Assembly: GCF_000519325.1 (NCBI RefSeq)
Contig: NZ_KI912613.1
Span: 145,631 to 209,630, forward strand
Source: Patulibacter minatonensis DSM 18081
Lineage (GTDB): Bacteria; Actinomycetota; Thermoleophilia; Solirubrobacterales; Solirubrobacteraceae
Length of the DNA: 64,000 nucleotides
Direction of reading: 5' to 3'
Made by a program: the position numbers and the translations under genes. Below the pieces are notes generated by a model. That model made no database searches, was not told the DNA's origin, and saw nothing but the letters and a program-made list of their open reading frames with translations. Below are positions 2,381-62,701 of this stretch, piece after piece (within the stretch, counting starts at the first letter, position 1; every line of letters starts with the position of its first letter).

Positions 2381-3850
2381 CTACGACGGCCGCGTCCTGA
2401 GCGCCGCCGCGGCGCGCTCGGCGGTCCCCCGCGCCCACGCGCCGGTGGACGCGAACGCCAGGACGACGATCGCCACCGCGCAGCCGGCGACGATCCACCA
2501 GCCCGGGTGGCTGCTCTCTGCGACCGCCGCGCCGCTCGTCGCCGTGCCGACCGCGACGGCGCCGACGATCGCGACGCCCAGCGACGACCCGACCTGCCGG
2601 CTCGTCGACGCGACCGCCGAGGCGACGCCCGCCTGCTCGGCGGGCATGCCCGAGACCGCGGTGTTCGTGATCGGCGGGTTGACCGAGCCGAAGCCGACCC
2701 CGAACAGCACGTAGCTCGCGAACAGCCACGCCACCGACGTGTCGCGCCCCAGTCCGGTGAGCATGATCGCGCTGACCACGATCGCGGCGCCCCCGGCTGC
2801 CAGCGACCAGCGCGTCCCGAAGCGCCCGACGATCCTGCCCGTGACCGGCGCGACGACGACCGTGGTCACCGCCATCGGCAGCGTGTAGAGCCCGGCGTGC
2901 AGCGGCGACAGCCCGCGCGCCTCCTGCAGGTACAGCGTGTTCAGGAAGAGGAAGCCGCCGAGCGACACGAACGCGAGCACGGCGATCAGCGACGCCCCCG
3001 CGAACGGTGCGGAGCGGAAGAACCGCGGGTCGATCAGGGGTTCGTGGCACCGCGACTCGTAGACGACGAGCAGGACGAGGCTCACCGCCGACACCGCCAG
3101 CAGGCCGAGGGTCTGCAGCGACGCCCAGCCGGCGTCGGGCGCCTGGATGATCGCGAAGACGACGGTGGCCAGGAACACGATGACGAGGACCTGCCCGACC
3201 GGGTCGATCCGGCGGGCGGTCGGAGCCCGCGACTCCGGGACGAACCGGTGGGTCAGGACCATCGCCGCGACGCCCACCGGCACGTTGATCCAGAAGATCG
3301 CGCGCCACGACTCGAGCTCCACGAGGCCGCCGCCGACGACCGGCCCGAACGCCATCGACAGGCCGATCATCGCGCCCCAGACGCCGATCGCCTGGGCGCG
3401 CTCGCGCGGGTCGTCGAACGTGTTGCGGATGATCGACATCGCGACGGGGTTCAGCATCGACCCGCCGACGCCCTGGAGCATCCGGAAGACGATCAGGAGC
3501 TCGATGTTCGGCGCGAGGCTGCAGAGGAGCGACCCGGTCGAGAACACCGCCAGCCCGATCTGGAACATGCGGACGCGACCGATCCGGTCGCCGGTGGATC
3601 CCGACAGCATGAGCAGGCTCGCGAGCACGAGCGTGTAGGCCGACACCGCCCACTGCAGCCCCGCGGTCGAGGCGCCGAGGTCCGCGCGCATGTTCGGGAG
3701 CGCGACGTTCACCGCGGTGCTGTCGAGCACGACGACGAAGAGGCTCGAGCAGCAGATGGCGAGGATGAACCACCGGCGCGGATCCCGGACGACGTCGGCG
3801 GCGGTGGCCGAGCCGGTCGGGGCGGGCTGCTCGGCGGGGGTCACGGCCAT
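2381..3850 (-). CDS. DHA2 family MFS drug exporter
   Basis: A 489-residue membrane protein of the EmrB/QacA (14-helix) family. The N-terminus has FVVVLDSTAVNVALPNM, the family motif D1 in helix 1. Motif A-like GSTGDRIGRVRMF follows, then motif C in helix 5 (AFGPVVGGGL) and the late segment MPAEQAGVASAVASTSRQVG. The ATG at 3850 sits two bases after a GGAGG; the GTG two codons later has better spacing and is an equally possible start. It is divergent from the GGDEF gene and convergent with the lipoprotein. It exports an unknown cation or drug using the proton gradient. Confidence 0.88.
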   Translation of the reverse strand: MAVTPAEQPAPTGSATAADVVRDPRRWFILAICCSSLFVVVLDSTAVNVALPNMRADLGASTAGLQWAVSAYTLVLASLLMLSGSTGDRIGRVRMFQIGLAVFSTGSLLCSLAPNIELLIVFRMLQGVGGSMLNPVAMSIIRNTFDDPRERAQAIGVWGAMIGLSMAFGPVVGGGLVELESWRAIFWINVPVGVAAMVLTHRFVPESRAPTARRIDPVGQVLVIVFLATVVFAIIQAPDAGWASLQTLGLLAVSAVSLVLLVVYESRCHEPLIDPRFFRSAPFAGASLIAVLAFVSLGGFLFLNTLYLQEARGLSPLHAGLYTLPMAVTTVVVAPVTGRIVGRFGTRWSLAAGGAAIVVSAIMLTGLGRDTSVAWLFASYVLFGVGFGSVNPPITNTAVSGMPAEQAGVASAVASTSRQVGSSLGVAIVGAVAVGTATSGAAVAESSHPGWWIVAGCAVAIVVLAFASTGAWARGTAERAAAALRTRPS

Positions 3851-43707: not shown

Positions 43708-44661
43708 ATGACCCCCTCCACCGACACCGACCACGACGCCTTCGAGGCGCAGGTGCGCCGCCACACCCGCGAGCTGCGCGTCCACTGCTACCGGATGACG
43801 GGCTCCCTCGAGGAGTCCGAGGACCTCGTCCAGGAGACGTTCCTGCGCGCCTGGCGCAAGCGGGAGCAGTACGCGGGACGCGCGTCGCTCCGGGCGTGGC
43901 TCTACCGGATCGCGACGAACGCGTGCCTCGACGCGCTCGACAAGCGCCCGCGGACCCCGACGGCGTCGGGCGAGGTCCTGTGGCTGCAGCCGTTCCCGGA
44001 CGCGCTGCTCGCCGAGCTGCCGTCGGACGACGAGGGCCCGGAGGCCGCGGTCGTCGCGAAGGAGACGTTCGAGCTGACGTTCCTGGTCGCGATCCAGCGC
44101 CTCGCGCCCCTGCCGCGCGCCGTCCTGATCCTGCGCGACGTCCTCGATCTCTCCGCCCGCGAGACCGCCGAGGTGCTCGAGACGACGGTCGCGTCGGTGA
44201 ACTCCGCCCTGCAGCGCGCGCGGGCCGGCCTGCGGGAGCACCTGCCCGAGCCCCGCGCCGCGTGGCGTCCCGACCAGGACCCCGACGCCGCCCAGCGCGA
44301 CCTCCTCGCGCGCTACGTCGAGGCGTCCGAGCGCGGCGACGTCGAGGCCCTCGCGGCGCTCTCCCACGAGGACCTGCGCTTCTCGATGCCGCCGCAGCCC
44401 GACGTCTTCGAGGGCCGCGACGCCGTCATCGGCTGCTGGGTCGACGGCGGCTTCGGCTCCGAGTCCTTCGGCGAGACGCGCTGCGTGCTCACCGGCGCCA
44501 ACGGCCAGCCGGCGGTCGCCTGCTACGTCCGGACGCCAGGGGCCGACGCGTTCCGCCCGCTGGCCGTCGACGTCCTGCGCTTCGAGGACGGCCTGGTCCG
44601 CGAGGTCGTCACGTTCGACGGGTCCCTCTTCCCGAACTTCGGGCTGCCGGCGACGGTGTAG
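43708..44661 (+). CDS. SigG-like ECF sigma factor with SnoaL-like C-terminal domain
   Basis: A 317-residue sigma factor. Region 2: TRELRVHCYRMTGSLEESED, LVQETFLRAWRKREQY and LRAWLYRIATNACLDALDKR. Region 4: LPRAVLILRDVLDLSARETA and TTVASVNSALQRARAGLREH. A C-terminal NTF2/SnoaL-like domain (ARYVEASERGDVEALAALSH to LFPNFGLPATV, about residues 195-317) is characteristic of the SigJ/SigG-type ECF groups, in which it regulates the sigma factor in place of an anti-sigma protein. It has no operon partner. WLQPFPDALLAEL is conserved in the SigG group. Confidence 0.9.
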   Translation: MTPSTDTDHDAFEAQVRRHTRELRVHCYRMTGSLEESEDLVQETFLRAWRKREQYAGRASLRAWLYRIATNACLDALDKRPRTPTASGEVLWLQPFPDALLAELPSDDEGPEAAVVAKETFELTFLVAIQRLAPLPRAVLILRDVLDLSARETAEVLETTVASVNSALQRARAGLREHLPEPRAAWRPDQDPDAAQRDLLARYVEASERGDVEALAALSHEDLRFSMPPQPDVFEGRDAVIGCWVDGGFGSESFGETRCVLTGANGQPAVACYVRTPGADAFRPLAVDVLRFEDGLVREVVTFDGSLFPNFGLPATV

Positions 44662-57960: not shown

Positions 57961-58530
57961 CCCTCGACGACCGCCGACACGGCCCCCGACCGGATCAACC
58001 TGGCGCAGACCAACCCGAACTACATCACCACCAGCTACGGCGGCACTCCCGGCGCGGTGACATCGATCGCGTTCAACGCCGAGAAGACGGTCTTGACGCT
58101 CACCGCCACCGACCCGGCGCTGAAGGGCTACAAGCCCGACTACGTGCACGTCACGACCGCCGAGCGAGGCGGCGGCACCGAGTACAGCACCGCCGACGCC
58201 TACCTCGGCCCCGTCGCCCCGAAGACGACGATCCCGTCGAAGGCCCGCCAGCTGACCGCCTCCTCCGCCGGCACGATCAAGGTGCCCCTCAGCGCCCTGG
58301 AGGCCAAGGCCGACCGACGGATCATCATCAAGCTCGGCGGCCAGCAGCTGGGACTGAGGTCCCTGCCCGCGAAGTACAGCTCCCGCCGCGAGGCGGTGAT
58401 CCGGCTGTCGAAGACCGGACTGCGGCGCCTCGGTCGCGGGAACCGCACCGTCGTGCTGCAGGTCGAGACCCGCCTGAAGAACCGCTCCAGCGCGTACGTC
58501 CGCAAGACCATCAAGCTCCGGCGACGCTGA
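57961..58530 (+). pseudogene. 5'-truncated C-terminal fragment of a secreted or surface protein
   Basis: The frame has a stop at 57958-57960 and then reads PSTTADTAPDRINLAQTNPN onward through a beta-rich region (KGYKPDYVHVTTAERGGGT) to a basic end (RLKNRSSAYVRKTIKLRRR). No ATG, GTG or TTG is available before GTG 58057, and the sequence before it still looks like protein. I read it as the end of a longer protein whose start was deleted. A 157-residue product from GTG 58057 is possible. A good terminator follows the stop. Confidence 0.55.
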
Positions 58531-58563: not shown

Positions 58564-58656
58564 GCGCTCCGTCGGCTGTCGCGCCTGCGCTGGTGCCGGG
58601 CGTGAGAATCTTTTCGAGAACGTGCGTGCGTTCTGGCGGCCCCGGCCGTCTCACCC

Positions 58657-58683
58657 TCGACGGCGCGAAGAACGCGCCGTCGA
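58657..58683 (+). promoter_or_regulatory. hairpin in the leader of the secreted protein/sigma operon
   Basis: TCGACGGCGCG and CGCGCCGTCGA form a perfect 11-bp stem with loop AAGAA, ending 27 nt before the ATG at 58711 and just before its GAGG ribosome site. It could modulate translation or stabilise the transcript. Confidence 0.5.
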
Positions 58684-58710
58684 ACCGTCCCCCAACACCA
58701 GAGGTTCCCC

Positions 58711-59142
58711 ATGTTCGCCACCCTCCGCTCGACCCGTGCGTCGAGCGTCGTCCTGACCGGCACGATCGCCCTGGCCGGCCTCGCCGGGCCCGCGGTCGCC
58801 GCCGACGCACCCGTCGTCGGGGCCCAGCAGACCTGGACCGGCGCCAAGGCCCCGGTCTCGGTCCCCGGCAACCACCTGCACAAGGGCGACACCATCCCCA
58901 AGGGCGCGGTCCTCATCTACCGCCAAGTCACCGTCGAGGGCGCGACGGCCAAGCGCCGCCTCACCCTCACCCTTCCGCGCGGCAAGGGACTGACGGGCAT
59001 CGCCGTCTCCGAGGGCGGTGCCGTCAGCGTCCAGATCGCCAAGGGCCACGAGCAGTACGAAGGCAAGCGCCGCGCCGTCCTGACCGTCCAGGGACGCACC
59101 GGGCACAGCGGCAGCGTGAAGGTCTACGGGTACGGCCGCTGA
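58711..59142 (+). CDS. small secreted protein of unknown function
   Basis: A 143-residue protein with a signal peptide (MFATLRSTRASSVVLTGTIA, cleavage after VAADA). The mature domain (about 110 residues) is beta-rich and contains KGAVLIYRQVTVEGATAKRR, TLTLPRGKGLTGIAV and VLTVQGRTGHSGSVKVYGYG, without cysteines. No family recognised. It lies seven bases before the sigma/anti-sigma fusion gene, so it is probably co-expressed and may be the exported part of that signalling system. Confidence 0.65.
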   Translation: MFATLRSTRASSVVLTGTIALAGLAGPAVAADAPVVGAQQTWTGAKAPVSVPGNHLHKGDTIPKGAVLIYRQVTVEGATAKRRLTLTLPRGKGLTGIAVSEGGAVSVQIAKGHEQYEGKRRAVLTVQGRTGHSGSVKVYGYGR

Positions 59143-59149
59143 GCTGCCG

Positions 59150-60592
59150 ATGAGTCCCCGCCCCTCGTCCCGCGACGATGCGCTGCTCGCACGCCTCACC
59201 GCGCAGGACGAGGGCGCGTGGGAACAGCTGGACCGTCGGTACCGCCCCGCGCTGCGCCGCTGGGCCGCCTCGTTGTCGCGACCAGGACAGATCGACCCCG
59301 ACGACATCGTCCAGGACGTCCTGCTCCGCGCGCACCATCGACTCTCGAACGGCTTCGCCCCCGACCACCTCTCCGCGTGGCTGCACCGCATGGTCCGCAA
59401 CGCCACGATCGACGCGATCCGCGCCCATGCCCACCGCGCGACCGAACCACTGCGCGACGACACCGCACACGTCGACGGTTCACCCGACGTGTTGATCGTC
59501 CGAAAGGAACGGCTGCGTCGCCTGATCGACGACGTCGCGAAGCTGCCGGACCCGCAGCGCCGCGCGCTGGTCGCTGTCGCCGTCGACGACCGTCCGGTCG
59601 ACGACGTCGCCGACGAGCTGGGCATCAGCGGCCCCGCCGTGCGGATGGCCGTCCGGCGCGCACGCGAGAACCTCGTCAGGACGGAGGAGGCGAGGGACGC
59701 CACGTGCGACCGGATCCGCACGCTCCTGCACGACGCCCACGACCAGGGCCGACGGCCGTCCGAGCACGCCCGTCTGCACCTGCAGCACTGCGCGGAGTGC
59801 CGCGAGTACCGCAAGGCGCTGCGGCGGAGCGATCGGCGCCTGAGGATCCTCGTTCCACCGGTCGTGCCGCTTGCCGGACTGCTCGGCGGTGGAGGTGCCA
59901 CGATCGGCGTGGTCGGCAAGTCGGTCGTCGCCGGTGTGGTGGTGCTCGCCGTCGCGACCGGAGGGGTCGTCGTCGAGCGTGAGCACCACCGCGGCCCGGG
60001 CGACCCGTCACCGGTGACGCTCCCGGCGGGGTTCGTCTCCGACCGCGAGGTCCGTCGTGGAGGGTCGCTTCCTCCCGGGGCGTGGGCCGTCACCGCCCGC
60101 GTCCGACTGCCCGCCGGCAGGCCTCCGCCGGGACAGCCACGTGCCGTCGTGCTGCACTGCCCGCGAGGCACGCGAGCGGCCGGATTCATCAACCCGCCGA
60201 ATCCGAGGTCGTTCACCCTGATGGTCCGCGAGGACCCACGACGCGATCTCGGCGGCCCCGACGTCCGGCTCCGCTTCGAGAACACGCCGCTGCGCCGACC
60301 GCAGACCGCGCGCGTTGGTGTGCTCTGCCGCCGTCCCGACCACCAGGGATCCCTCGAGCTGCACCCCCGACGAACCCGCCATGGGGAGACCGCCATGATC
60401 ACCACGGCGGGCCGTCACTACCTCCACAGCACTCCCGGCGGCGTCTTCAGCGGCACCCTCATGAGCAACCAACCCGTCTCGATGATCCGGACATCGAAGA
60501 GCCGCCTCTGGGCCTACGTCGTCTCCGACGCCGACCACCGAGGATGGGTCCGCCGATCCAATCTCCGGCGACCCGCACCCCAACACCCGTGA
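59150..60592 (+). CDS. ECF sigma factor fused to zinc anti-sigma domain, membrane helix and SH3-like ectodomain
   Basis: A 480-residue protein. Residues 15-190 are an ECF sigma factor: region 2 RYRPALRRWAASLSRPGQID, DDIVQDVLLRAHHRL and HRMVRNATIDAIRAHAHR; region 4 LPDPQRRALVAVAVDDRPVD, GISGPAVRMAVRRARENL. Residues 206-217 contain HLQHCAEC, the H-x3-C-x2-C zinc motif of ZAS anti-sigma factors. A hydrophobic stretch (about 238-275) crosses the membrane. Outside are a 150-residue domain and a C-terminal SH3b-like unit (VSMIRTSKSRLWAYVVSDAD, RGWVRRSNL). The sigma factor would be held at the membrane and need proteolysis or conformational release. Confidence 0.85.
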   Translation: MSPRPSSRDDALLARLTAQDEGAWEQLDRRYRPALRRWAASLSRPGQIDPDDIVQDVLLRAHHRLSNGFAPDHLSAWLHRMVRNATIDAIRAHAHRATEPLRDDTAHVDGSPDVLIVRKERLRRLIDDVAKLPDPQRRALVAVAVDDRPVDDVADELGISGPAVRMAVRRARENLVRTEEARDATCDRIRTLLHDAHDQGRRPSEHARLHLQHCAECREYRKALRRSDRRLRILVPPVVPLAGLLGGGGATIGVVGKSVVAGVVVLAVATGGVVVEREHHRGPGDPSPVTLPAGFVSDREVRRGGSLPPGAWAVTARVRLPAGRPPPGQPRAVVLHCPRGTRAAGFINPPNPRSFTLMVREDPRRDLGGPDVRLRFENTPLRRPQTARVGVLCRRPDHQGSLELHPRRTRHGETAMITTAGRHYLHSTPGGVFSGTLMSNQPVSMIRTSKSRLWAYVVSDADHRGWVRRSNLRRPAPQHP

Positions 60593-61542: not shown

Positions 61543-62701
61543 TCAGCGCAAGATGAGTGATCCGACCTGCTCGAGGGGCGTCGCGAACGCGAAGCGTTTG
61601 CGAGGCCGGTCGTTGAGCTCGTCGGCAACGAATCGCAGATCGGCGGGGGTATGCAGGGAGAGGTCGGTGCCCTTCGGGAAGTACTGCCGCAGGAGCCCGT
61701 TGGTGTTCTCGTTGGTGCCGCGCTGCCAGGGGCTGTGCGGGTCGCAGAAGTAGATGTCGATGCCCGCGTCGATGGTGATCTGCTGGTGGTCTCGAAGCTC
61801 GGGGCCCTGGTCCCAGGCAAGTGATTTGCGGAGCACCTCGGGGAGGGTTTTGACGCTGTCGATGAGGGCGTCGCAGACCTGTTCGGGCTTGTAGCCATCG
61901 GGGAGGTGGACGAGCATCGTGTAGCCCGTTGTGCCTTCCACGAGCGTGCCGATCGCGCTGAGGTTCCGCTTGCCGATGATGAGGTCGCCCTCCCAGTGGC
62001 CGGGCACCGCGCGGTCGTCGGCCTCGGCCGGCCGGTCGACGATATTGAGCATGTTCCTGGCGCTGTTCTTGCGTTGCCCGGGCTGCCGGCACGGCTTCCG
62101 GAGCGCCCTTCCGGTCCGCAGGCACGTCGTCAGATCGCGTCGAAGAGCACCCCGGGATTGCACGTAGAGGGACTGATAGATCGTCTCGGTCGACACCCAC
62201 ATCTCCTGTCGTGACGGGAACTTCCGTCGCAGTCGTCCGGCGATTTGCTCGGGCGAGAATCGCCGCTTGAGGTCCGCCTCGACGAGGTCGCGGAGCTCGA
62301 GGTTCATCGCGAGCTTCGCCGGTTTGGGTCGCGACGCGGTGAAACGCAGAGGCGTGCGCTGAGGTCGCGCGGTAGGTGCCGTTGGCGGCGGTGTTGCGCT
62401 GCAGCTCGCGGGTGATCGTCGACGGGCTCCGCCCCAGGCGCGCGGCGATCGAGCACTTCGTCTCGTTGGCGGCGATGCCGATCGCGATCTCTTCGCGTTC
62501 CGCGAACGTGAGACAGCGGCCCTTGAGATCGCGCCCGCGCCGGAGCCGCACGCCGCCGGCTTCTTGCACCCATCTGCGCGATCGTCTGCGGTTCGTTCCA
62601 GCGGCCGCGGCGGCGTCGGTGAGGAACGCGCCGGCTTGCAGCGCGTCCCAAAACGGTTGGGTCGTCTCGGCGACCATCTGTGGTGAGAACCCGATGGTCA
62701 T
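61543..62701 (-). mobile_element. IS30-family transposase, frameshifted
   Basis: From ATG 62701 the first frame gives the IS30 DNA-binding part (LTFAEREEIAIGIAANETKC, AARLGRSPSTITRELQRNTA, GTYRATSAHASAFHRV). Near 62332 the homology jumps to the next frame, which reads RPKPAKLAMNLELRDLVEAD and continues to the stop with the catalytic DDE: HWEGDLIIG, SLAWDQGPELRDH and PHSPWQRGTNENTNGLL. One extra base explains the shift. Product would be about 385 residues, normal for IS30. I could not find matching terminal inverted repeats, so element ends are undefined. Probably inactive unless translated by frameshifting. Confidence 0.8.

Follow-up and report, generated by a model that had tools for sequence, protein, structure and literature searches.

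The operon and its fusion protein

The window, a stretch of 64,000 nucleotides of the Patulibacter minatonensis DSM 18081 genome, carries a forward-strand operon in which a candidate promoter/operator element, GAACGTGCGTGCGTTC (58618..58633), precedes the gene of a small secreted protein, sec143 (58711..59142), and, 7 nt further downstream, the gene of a 480-aa fusion protein that starts at an ATG codon (59150..60592). From its N-terminus, the fusion protein comprises an ECF sigma domain with regions 2 and 4 (aa 1-178; 59150..59683), a zinc anti-sigma (ZAS) domain (aa 183-232; 59696..59845), a membrane region (aa 233-282; 59846..59995), and an ectodomain of two modules, D1 (aa 283-398; 59996..60343) and D2, a bacterial SH3 domain (aa 399-480; 60344..60589). 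An earlier note had already read a sigma factor, a ZAS domain, a membrane segment and an ectodomain in one protein, and the Pfam and NCBIfam domain searches together with the alignment of relatives bear this out. The orthologous fusions that it had proposed to look for exist: full-length relatives with all parts are found in several genera, and the architecture is therefore not a chance reading.

The Pfam search placed Sigma70_r2 at aa 29-94 (6e-11) and Sigma70_r4_2 at aa 129-175 (2e-8), the NCBIfam model of the sigma70-ECF superfamily (TIGR02937) scored 73 bits at a cut-off of 42.9, and a fold search with the structure model matched the sigma domains to PDB structures of ECF region 2 and region 4. 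The protein has regions 2 and 4 and lacks regions 1 and 3, the layout of an ECF sigma factor. The earlier reading had been made to depend on a working region 4 and a conserved membrane segment; region 4 looks functional, showing no sign of loss and matching a solved ECF region 4, and the membrane segment is kept in 17 relatives. The HLQHCAEC stretch (aa 210-217), previously proposed as an H-x3-C-x2-C zinc motif, is indeed part of such a site, and a fourth ligand that had been overlooked, C186, completes it (C186-x23-H210-x3-C214-x2-C217). All four ligands are invariant in the full-length alignment of 17 relatives and follow the class I (ZAS) pattern, C/H followed by H-x3-C-x2-C. The Pfam model zf-HC2 matched 1 of 17 family members (E 0.044) and is insensitive here, as an ECF52-type control (L162) also scored slightly below its cut-off (20.4 versus 22.2 bits). 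Within the membrane region, Kyte-Doolittle analysis revealed two hydrophobic segments, aa 238-256 (1.64) and the main one at aa 258-276 (2.15), with a positively charged N-side flank in all relatives examined.

D1 contains two cysteines, C337 and C393, that are invariant in the 17 relatives, and the Pfam search of the fusion protein and its relatives returned no family match for this module; judged by its sequence, D1 is a new ectodomain family with no Pfam entry. The SH3 domain is weak in the window protein alone, where SH3_6 covers aa 435-468 with 18 bits, below the cut-off of 27. The relatives identify it: 8 of 14 matched SH3_3 (PF08239; best 2.9e-8), with SH3_6 and SH3_4 matches also among them, and the earlier description of an SH3b-like C-terminal unit holds. 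A structure model of the fusion protein built on four sequences (pTM 0.31) resolved the sigma domains and the ZAS helices, and did not resolve the ectodomain or the packing of the ZAS domain on sigma. The sigma factor is probably held in cis by the ZAS domain.

Orientation of the ectodomain

The two hydrophobic segments are compatible with one or two membrane crossings, and the cysteines bear on the side at which the ectodomain lies. In the receptor SH3, the first and last cysteines are both present in 14 proteins and both missing in 7, the window protein included, and the one discordant protein is frameshifted at its end. In the type A partners (secreted D1-like proteins, see below), the cysteines equivalent to C337 and C393 are both present in 12 and both missing in 8, with no mixed case; owing to shared ancestry, the counts in both sets are not independent events. 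This paired gain and loss points to disulfides and therefore to an oxidising compartment, that is, an extracytoplasmic location. Together with the homologues that bear signal peptides, the paired cysteines are supporting, if indirect, evidence that D1-SH3 lies outside the membrane, and they disfavour a two-helix topology with a cytoplasmic C-terminus.

Duplication of the operon as a unit

The genome (one contig, 5.5 Mb) contains three full-length copies of the fusion gene: the window copy, a 70% paralogue (L024) and a 44% paralogue (L025). DNA homology between the window and L024 spans 58618-60576; it begins at GAACGTGCGTGCGTTC, 93 bp before the start of sec143, and stops where the sigma gene ends, and the duplicated segment consists of the element, sec143 and the ECF gene, and nothing else. 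The exact 16-mer occurs just twice in the genome, upstream of these two paralogous operons. From the bounds of the homology and the two exact matches, it follows that the element and the genes of partner and receptor were duplicated together and retained. The ratio dN/dS between the window copy and its own-genome paralogue is ~0.33 (0.26 for sigma and ZAS), therefore indicating purifying selection. The position of GAACGTGCGTGCGTTC suggests a promoter or operator; its remaining matches in the genome carry 1-2 mismatches, and because of this no regulon can be named.

L024 and L026, a locus of another species of the genus, have long flanking homology in common on both sides, and the window copy is without it. 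Judged by these homologies, the window operon is a displaced copy of the second operon in the same genome. No neighbours beyond partner and sigma are conserved across genera. An IS30-like transposase split by frame lies ~1 kb downstream of the operon (61543-62651, minus strand; rve domain, 1.2e-10), and may be related to the displacement. Just before the operon, a 157-aa ORF (58057-58530, plus strand) without Pfam match or relatives in the compared loci looks like an N-terminally cut gene fragment.

A secreted relative of the ectodomain encoded upstream

Sec143 has a signal-peptide-like N-terminus and a profile match to D1, and appears to be a secreted stand-alone relative of that module. Homologues of sec143 were located by tblastn directly upstream of other family members, and reading of the upstream ORFs distinguished two kinds of small secreted protein: type A, which is like sec143 and D1, and type B, a lone SH3. 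In profile-profile comparison, type A matched D1 (probability 98, P 1.9e-13) and type B matched D2 (probability 98.7, P 2.1e-16), and the crossed pairs (type A with D2, type B with D1), which served as the negative control, gave nothing. HMM searches of genomes agreed in both directions, the ectodomain model retrieving partners of both types and the type A model retrieving D1 within the sigma proteins.

A partner gene lies directly upstream on the same strand in 24 of the 29 D1-type loci (nine type A, thirteen type B and two both), and the spacing to the sigma gene, among the loci measured, ranges between a 37-nt gap and a 31-nt overlap. No partner was present at any of 23 scanned loci with a fused sigma that lacks D1 (L040-L043; L162-L180). 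In four cases (L038, L039, L114, L115), a D1 protein without SH3 in cis is accompanied by an SH3 partner in trans. The D1-type loci without a partner are L025 (the third own-genome paralogue), L037, L116, L113 and a fragmentary locus, L105. At L113, the partner position is taken by a longer secreted protein (~200 aa) of a different kind, and at L037 and L116 the D1-type sigma has neither SH3 nor partner and adjoins a conserved opposite-strand gene that by eye encodes a PLP-dependent decarboxylase.

Partner-family genes were also found away from any D1-type sigma (L122-L127, L130); these encode stand-alone type A proteins, several of which share the motif PGVKAIRRGKPIP, and they may form a separate subfamily. 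In a genome of the same genus (L117, G001; 2450-2923), a sec143-like gene directly precedes a 23-aa remnant of the sigma C-terminus (65% to L027), apparently a natural deletion of the sigma gene in which the partner was kept.

Modelled from its single sequence, sec143 comes out as all-beta (pLDDT 64), and a fold search with this model yielded nothing significant; the ectodomain and partner profiles likewise found no convincing relative among the sequences of solved structures, and no Pfam match to the MucB/RseB family was detected among nine partner proteins. In E. coli, RseB, an envelope protein of the sigmaE operon, attaches to the external portion of the anti-sigma protein and shields it from cleavage. 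The resemblance is one of function alone, since the sec143-type partner is related to a domain of the receptor itself and has no MucB/RseB match, and an RseB-like guard role for the partner may serve as a working analogy. The conserved adjacency, the co-duplication and the homology to the ectodomain lend strong support to the suggestion of the earlier note that the secreted protein encoded upstream is part of the sensor.

Distribution and relation to known fused sigma factors

Of 232 genomes of the order, 24 matched the D1-SH3 ectodomain model, and every one of them belongs to the window's own family; when 297 genomes sampled evenly across the phylum were searched, no match came from outside that family. 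Fusions of sigma, ZAS and membrane segment that carry other outside parts, for the most part alanine/proline-rich tails, are common in the order and present across the phylum; one of them, L162, is laid out like ECF52 and carries an NPCBM domain (2.3e-29). In a sigma-ZAS tree, the 27 D1-type proteins cluster in a single group (SH-aLRT 98), at a great distance from the ECF52-type protein, the tree being made by a quick method and having long branches elsewhere. A scan of genome contigs with the fusion protein retrieved just distant, separate sigma factors. One further D1-type fusion (L104 in G112) is intact except for an in-frame TAG within D1 (3253-3255), and its first zinc ligand is H instead of C.

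The earlier note presented ECF sigma factors and ZAS proteins as usually separate. The fusion that it described is real, and its novelty did not stand: ECF48, ECF52 and ECF53 of Actinobacteria and IutY of Pseudomonas are known fused classes for which proteolytic release has been proposed (PMC8999054, PMC5826349), and a sigma-ZAS-membrane fusion is not new as such. ECF52 has been reported solely from Actinobacteria (PMC5826349), and its member SCO4117 of Streptomyces coelicolor, for which proteolytic release is proposed, likewise unites in a single chain sigma regions 2 and 4, a zinc finger anti-sigma domain, a membrane helix and a domain on the outside (PMC5826349, PMC8999054). ECF52 proteins, however, continue beyond the membrane helix with a proline-rich stretch and a domain that binds carbohydrate (NPCBM in L162), whereas the window protein has D1 and SH3 in their place and a secreted partner encoded upstream. 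ECF48 and ECF53 are also actinobacterial ECFs with a C-terminal ZAS domain and one to two membrane helices, but the passages describing them mention neither a D1-SH3 ectodomain nor a secreted partner (PMC8999054). IutY (ECF243) of Pseudomonas putida resembles the window protein in fusing sigma to a membrane anti-sigma and is released by Prc and RseP; it differs in belonging to iron cell-surface signalling, where it responds to aerobactin, and no D1-SH3 or secreted self-module is described for it in the same passages (PMC8999054). As far as our searches reach, the novelty lies in the D1-SH3 ectodomain, which is confined to a single family, and in its secreted partner; a literature search on SH3-bearing fusions and on the ECFs of the lineage, covering mostly non-subscription papers, found no description.

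What is known of fused sigma/anti-sigma receptors comes mostly from sequence, and in the parts of the literature covered neither the signal nor a sensor partner is established for the actinobacterial ones. A conserved operon in which such a receptor stands beside a secreted protein related to its own ectodomain points to a candidate for the sensor component that is missing. Moreover, the conserved pairing predicts direct binding between partner and ectodomain, and two genes would be a simple system in which to study the control of sigma release by a self-module.

Proposed mechanism and alternatives

We consider it probable that the fusion protein is a one-protein ECF receptor of the known fused type, in which the ZAS domain holds sigma in cis, D1-SH3 lies outside and a secreted partner is supplied from the same operon. 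The individual steps, namely ZAS inhibition, partner-ectodomain contact, proteolysis, a wall signal and autoregulation, are ones that we infer. The ZAS domain would block sigma at the membrane, and outside, at the cell wall, D1-SH3 and the secreted module would form a sensor complex. A change in this complex would expose the stalk to a site-1 protease, after which a site-2 protease would cut the membrane segment; the leftover ZAS tail would be trimmed or would lose its zinc, and the freed sigma might reactivate its own operon. SH3b domains suggest a cell-wall ligand, and the SH3 of the receptor suggests the same here. Homologues of site-2 proteases are present in the genome, but they prove little because they are near universal, occurring in 14 of 14 control genomes as well. 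The D1-type loci L025, L037 and L116 with no partner, the partner-family genes remote from a D1-type sigma, and the second hydrophobic segment count against the scheme. More tentatively, and with rather less confidence, we propose a class of membrane-tethered sigma receptors whose operons encode, next to the receptor, a secreted, free-standing relative of its sensor module; this soluble relative would control the receptor as competitor, guard or co-sensor, and lineages would swap the module, D1 or SH3, that is supplied in trans.

The partner might instead be the main target of the sigma factor and not its regulator, an envelope protein of an autoregulated operon, its homology to D1 going back to a common wall-binding ancestor module. 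Autoregulation is frequent among ECF operons, the gene that comes first after the candidate promoter element is that of the partner, and partner-family genes stand alone elsewhere, all of which would suit such a target. Yet the two partner types, unrelated to each other, each correspond to one of the receptor's own modules, and SH3 is supplied in trans at four loci that lack it in cis, so that a shared sensor fits better than an arbitrary target, and we regard this alternative as unlikely. A further alternative is that sigma is never cut free, with ligand binding or zinc loss altering the ZAS domain and the membrane-bound sigma working while tethered. A conserved cleavage-site region, which the earlier note had suggested seeking, was looked for in the relatives between the membrane segment and D1, and none was seen; moreover, intramembrane cleavage alone would leave the covalently attached ZAS domain on sigma, and extensions of the ECF41/ECF42 type are considered to act through a change in conformation or through contact with proteins (PMC8999054). 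However, the fused relative that has been studied most closely, IutY, is set free by Prc and RseP, and a truncated form of it is active (PMC8999054); tethered action seems doubtful to us. That the window copy is a decaying transposed duplicate without a function of its own, as its place outside the neighbourhood common to L024 and L026, the broken transposase nearby and the absence of a conserved flanking gene might suggest, is improbable in view of its intact reading frame, motifs, partner gene and upstream element and of the dN/dS against the other copy.

Elsewhere in the window (43708-44661, plus strand), a second ECF-like protein of 317 aa is encoded, whose C-terminal extension by eye resembles those of SnoaL-type fused ECFs.
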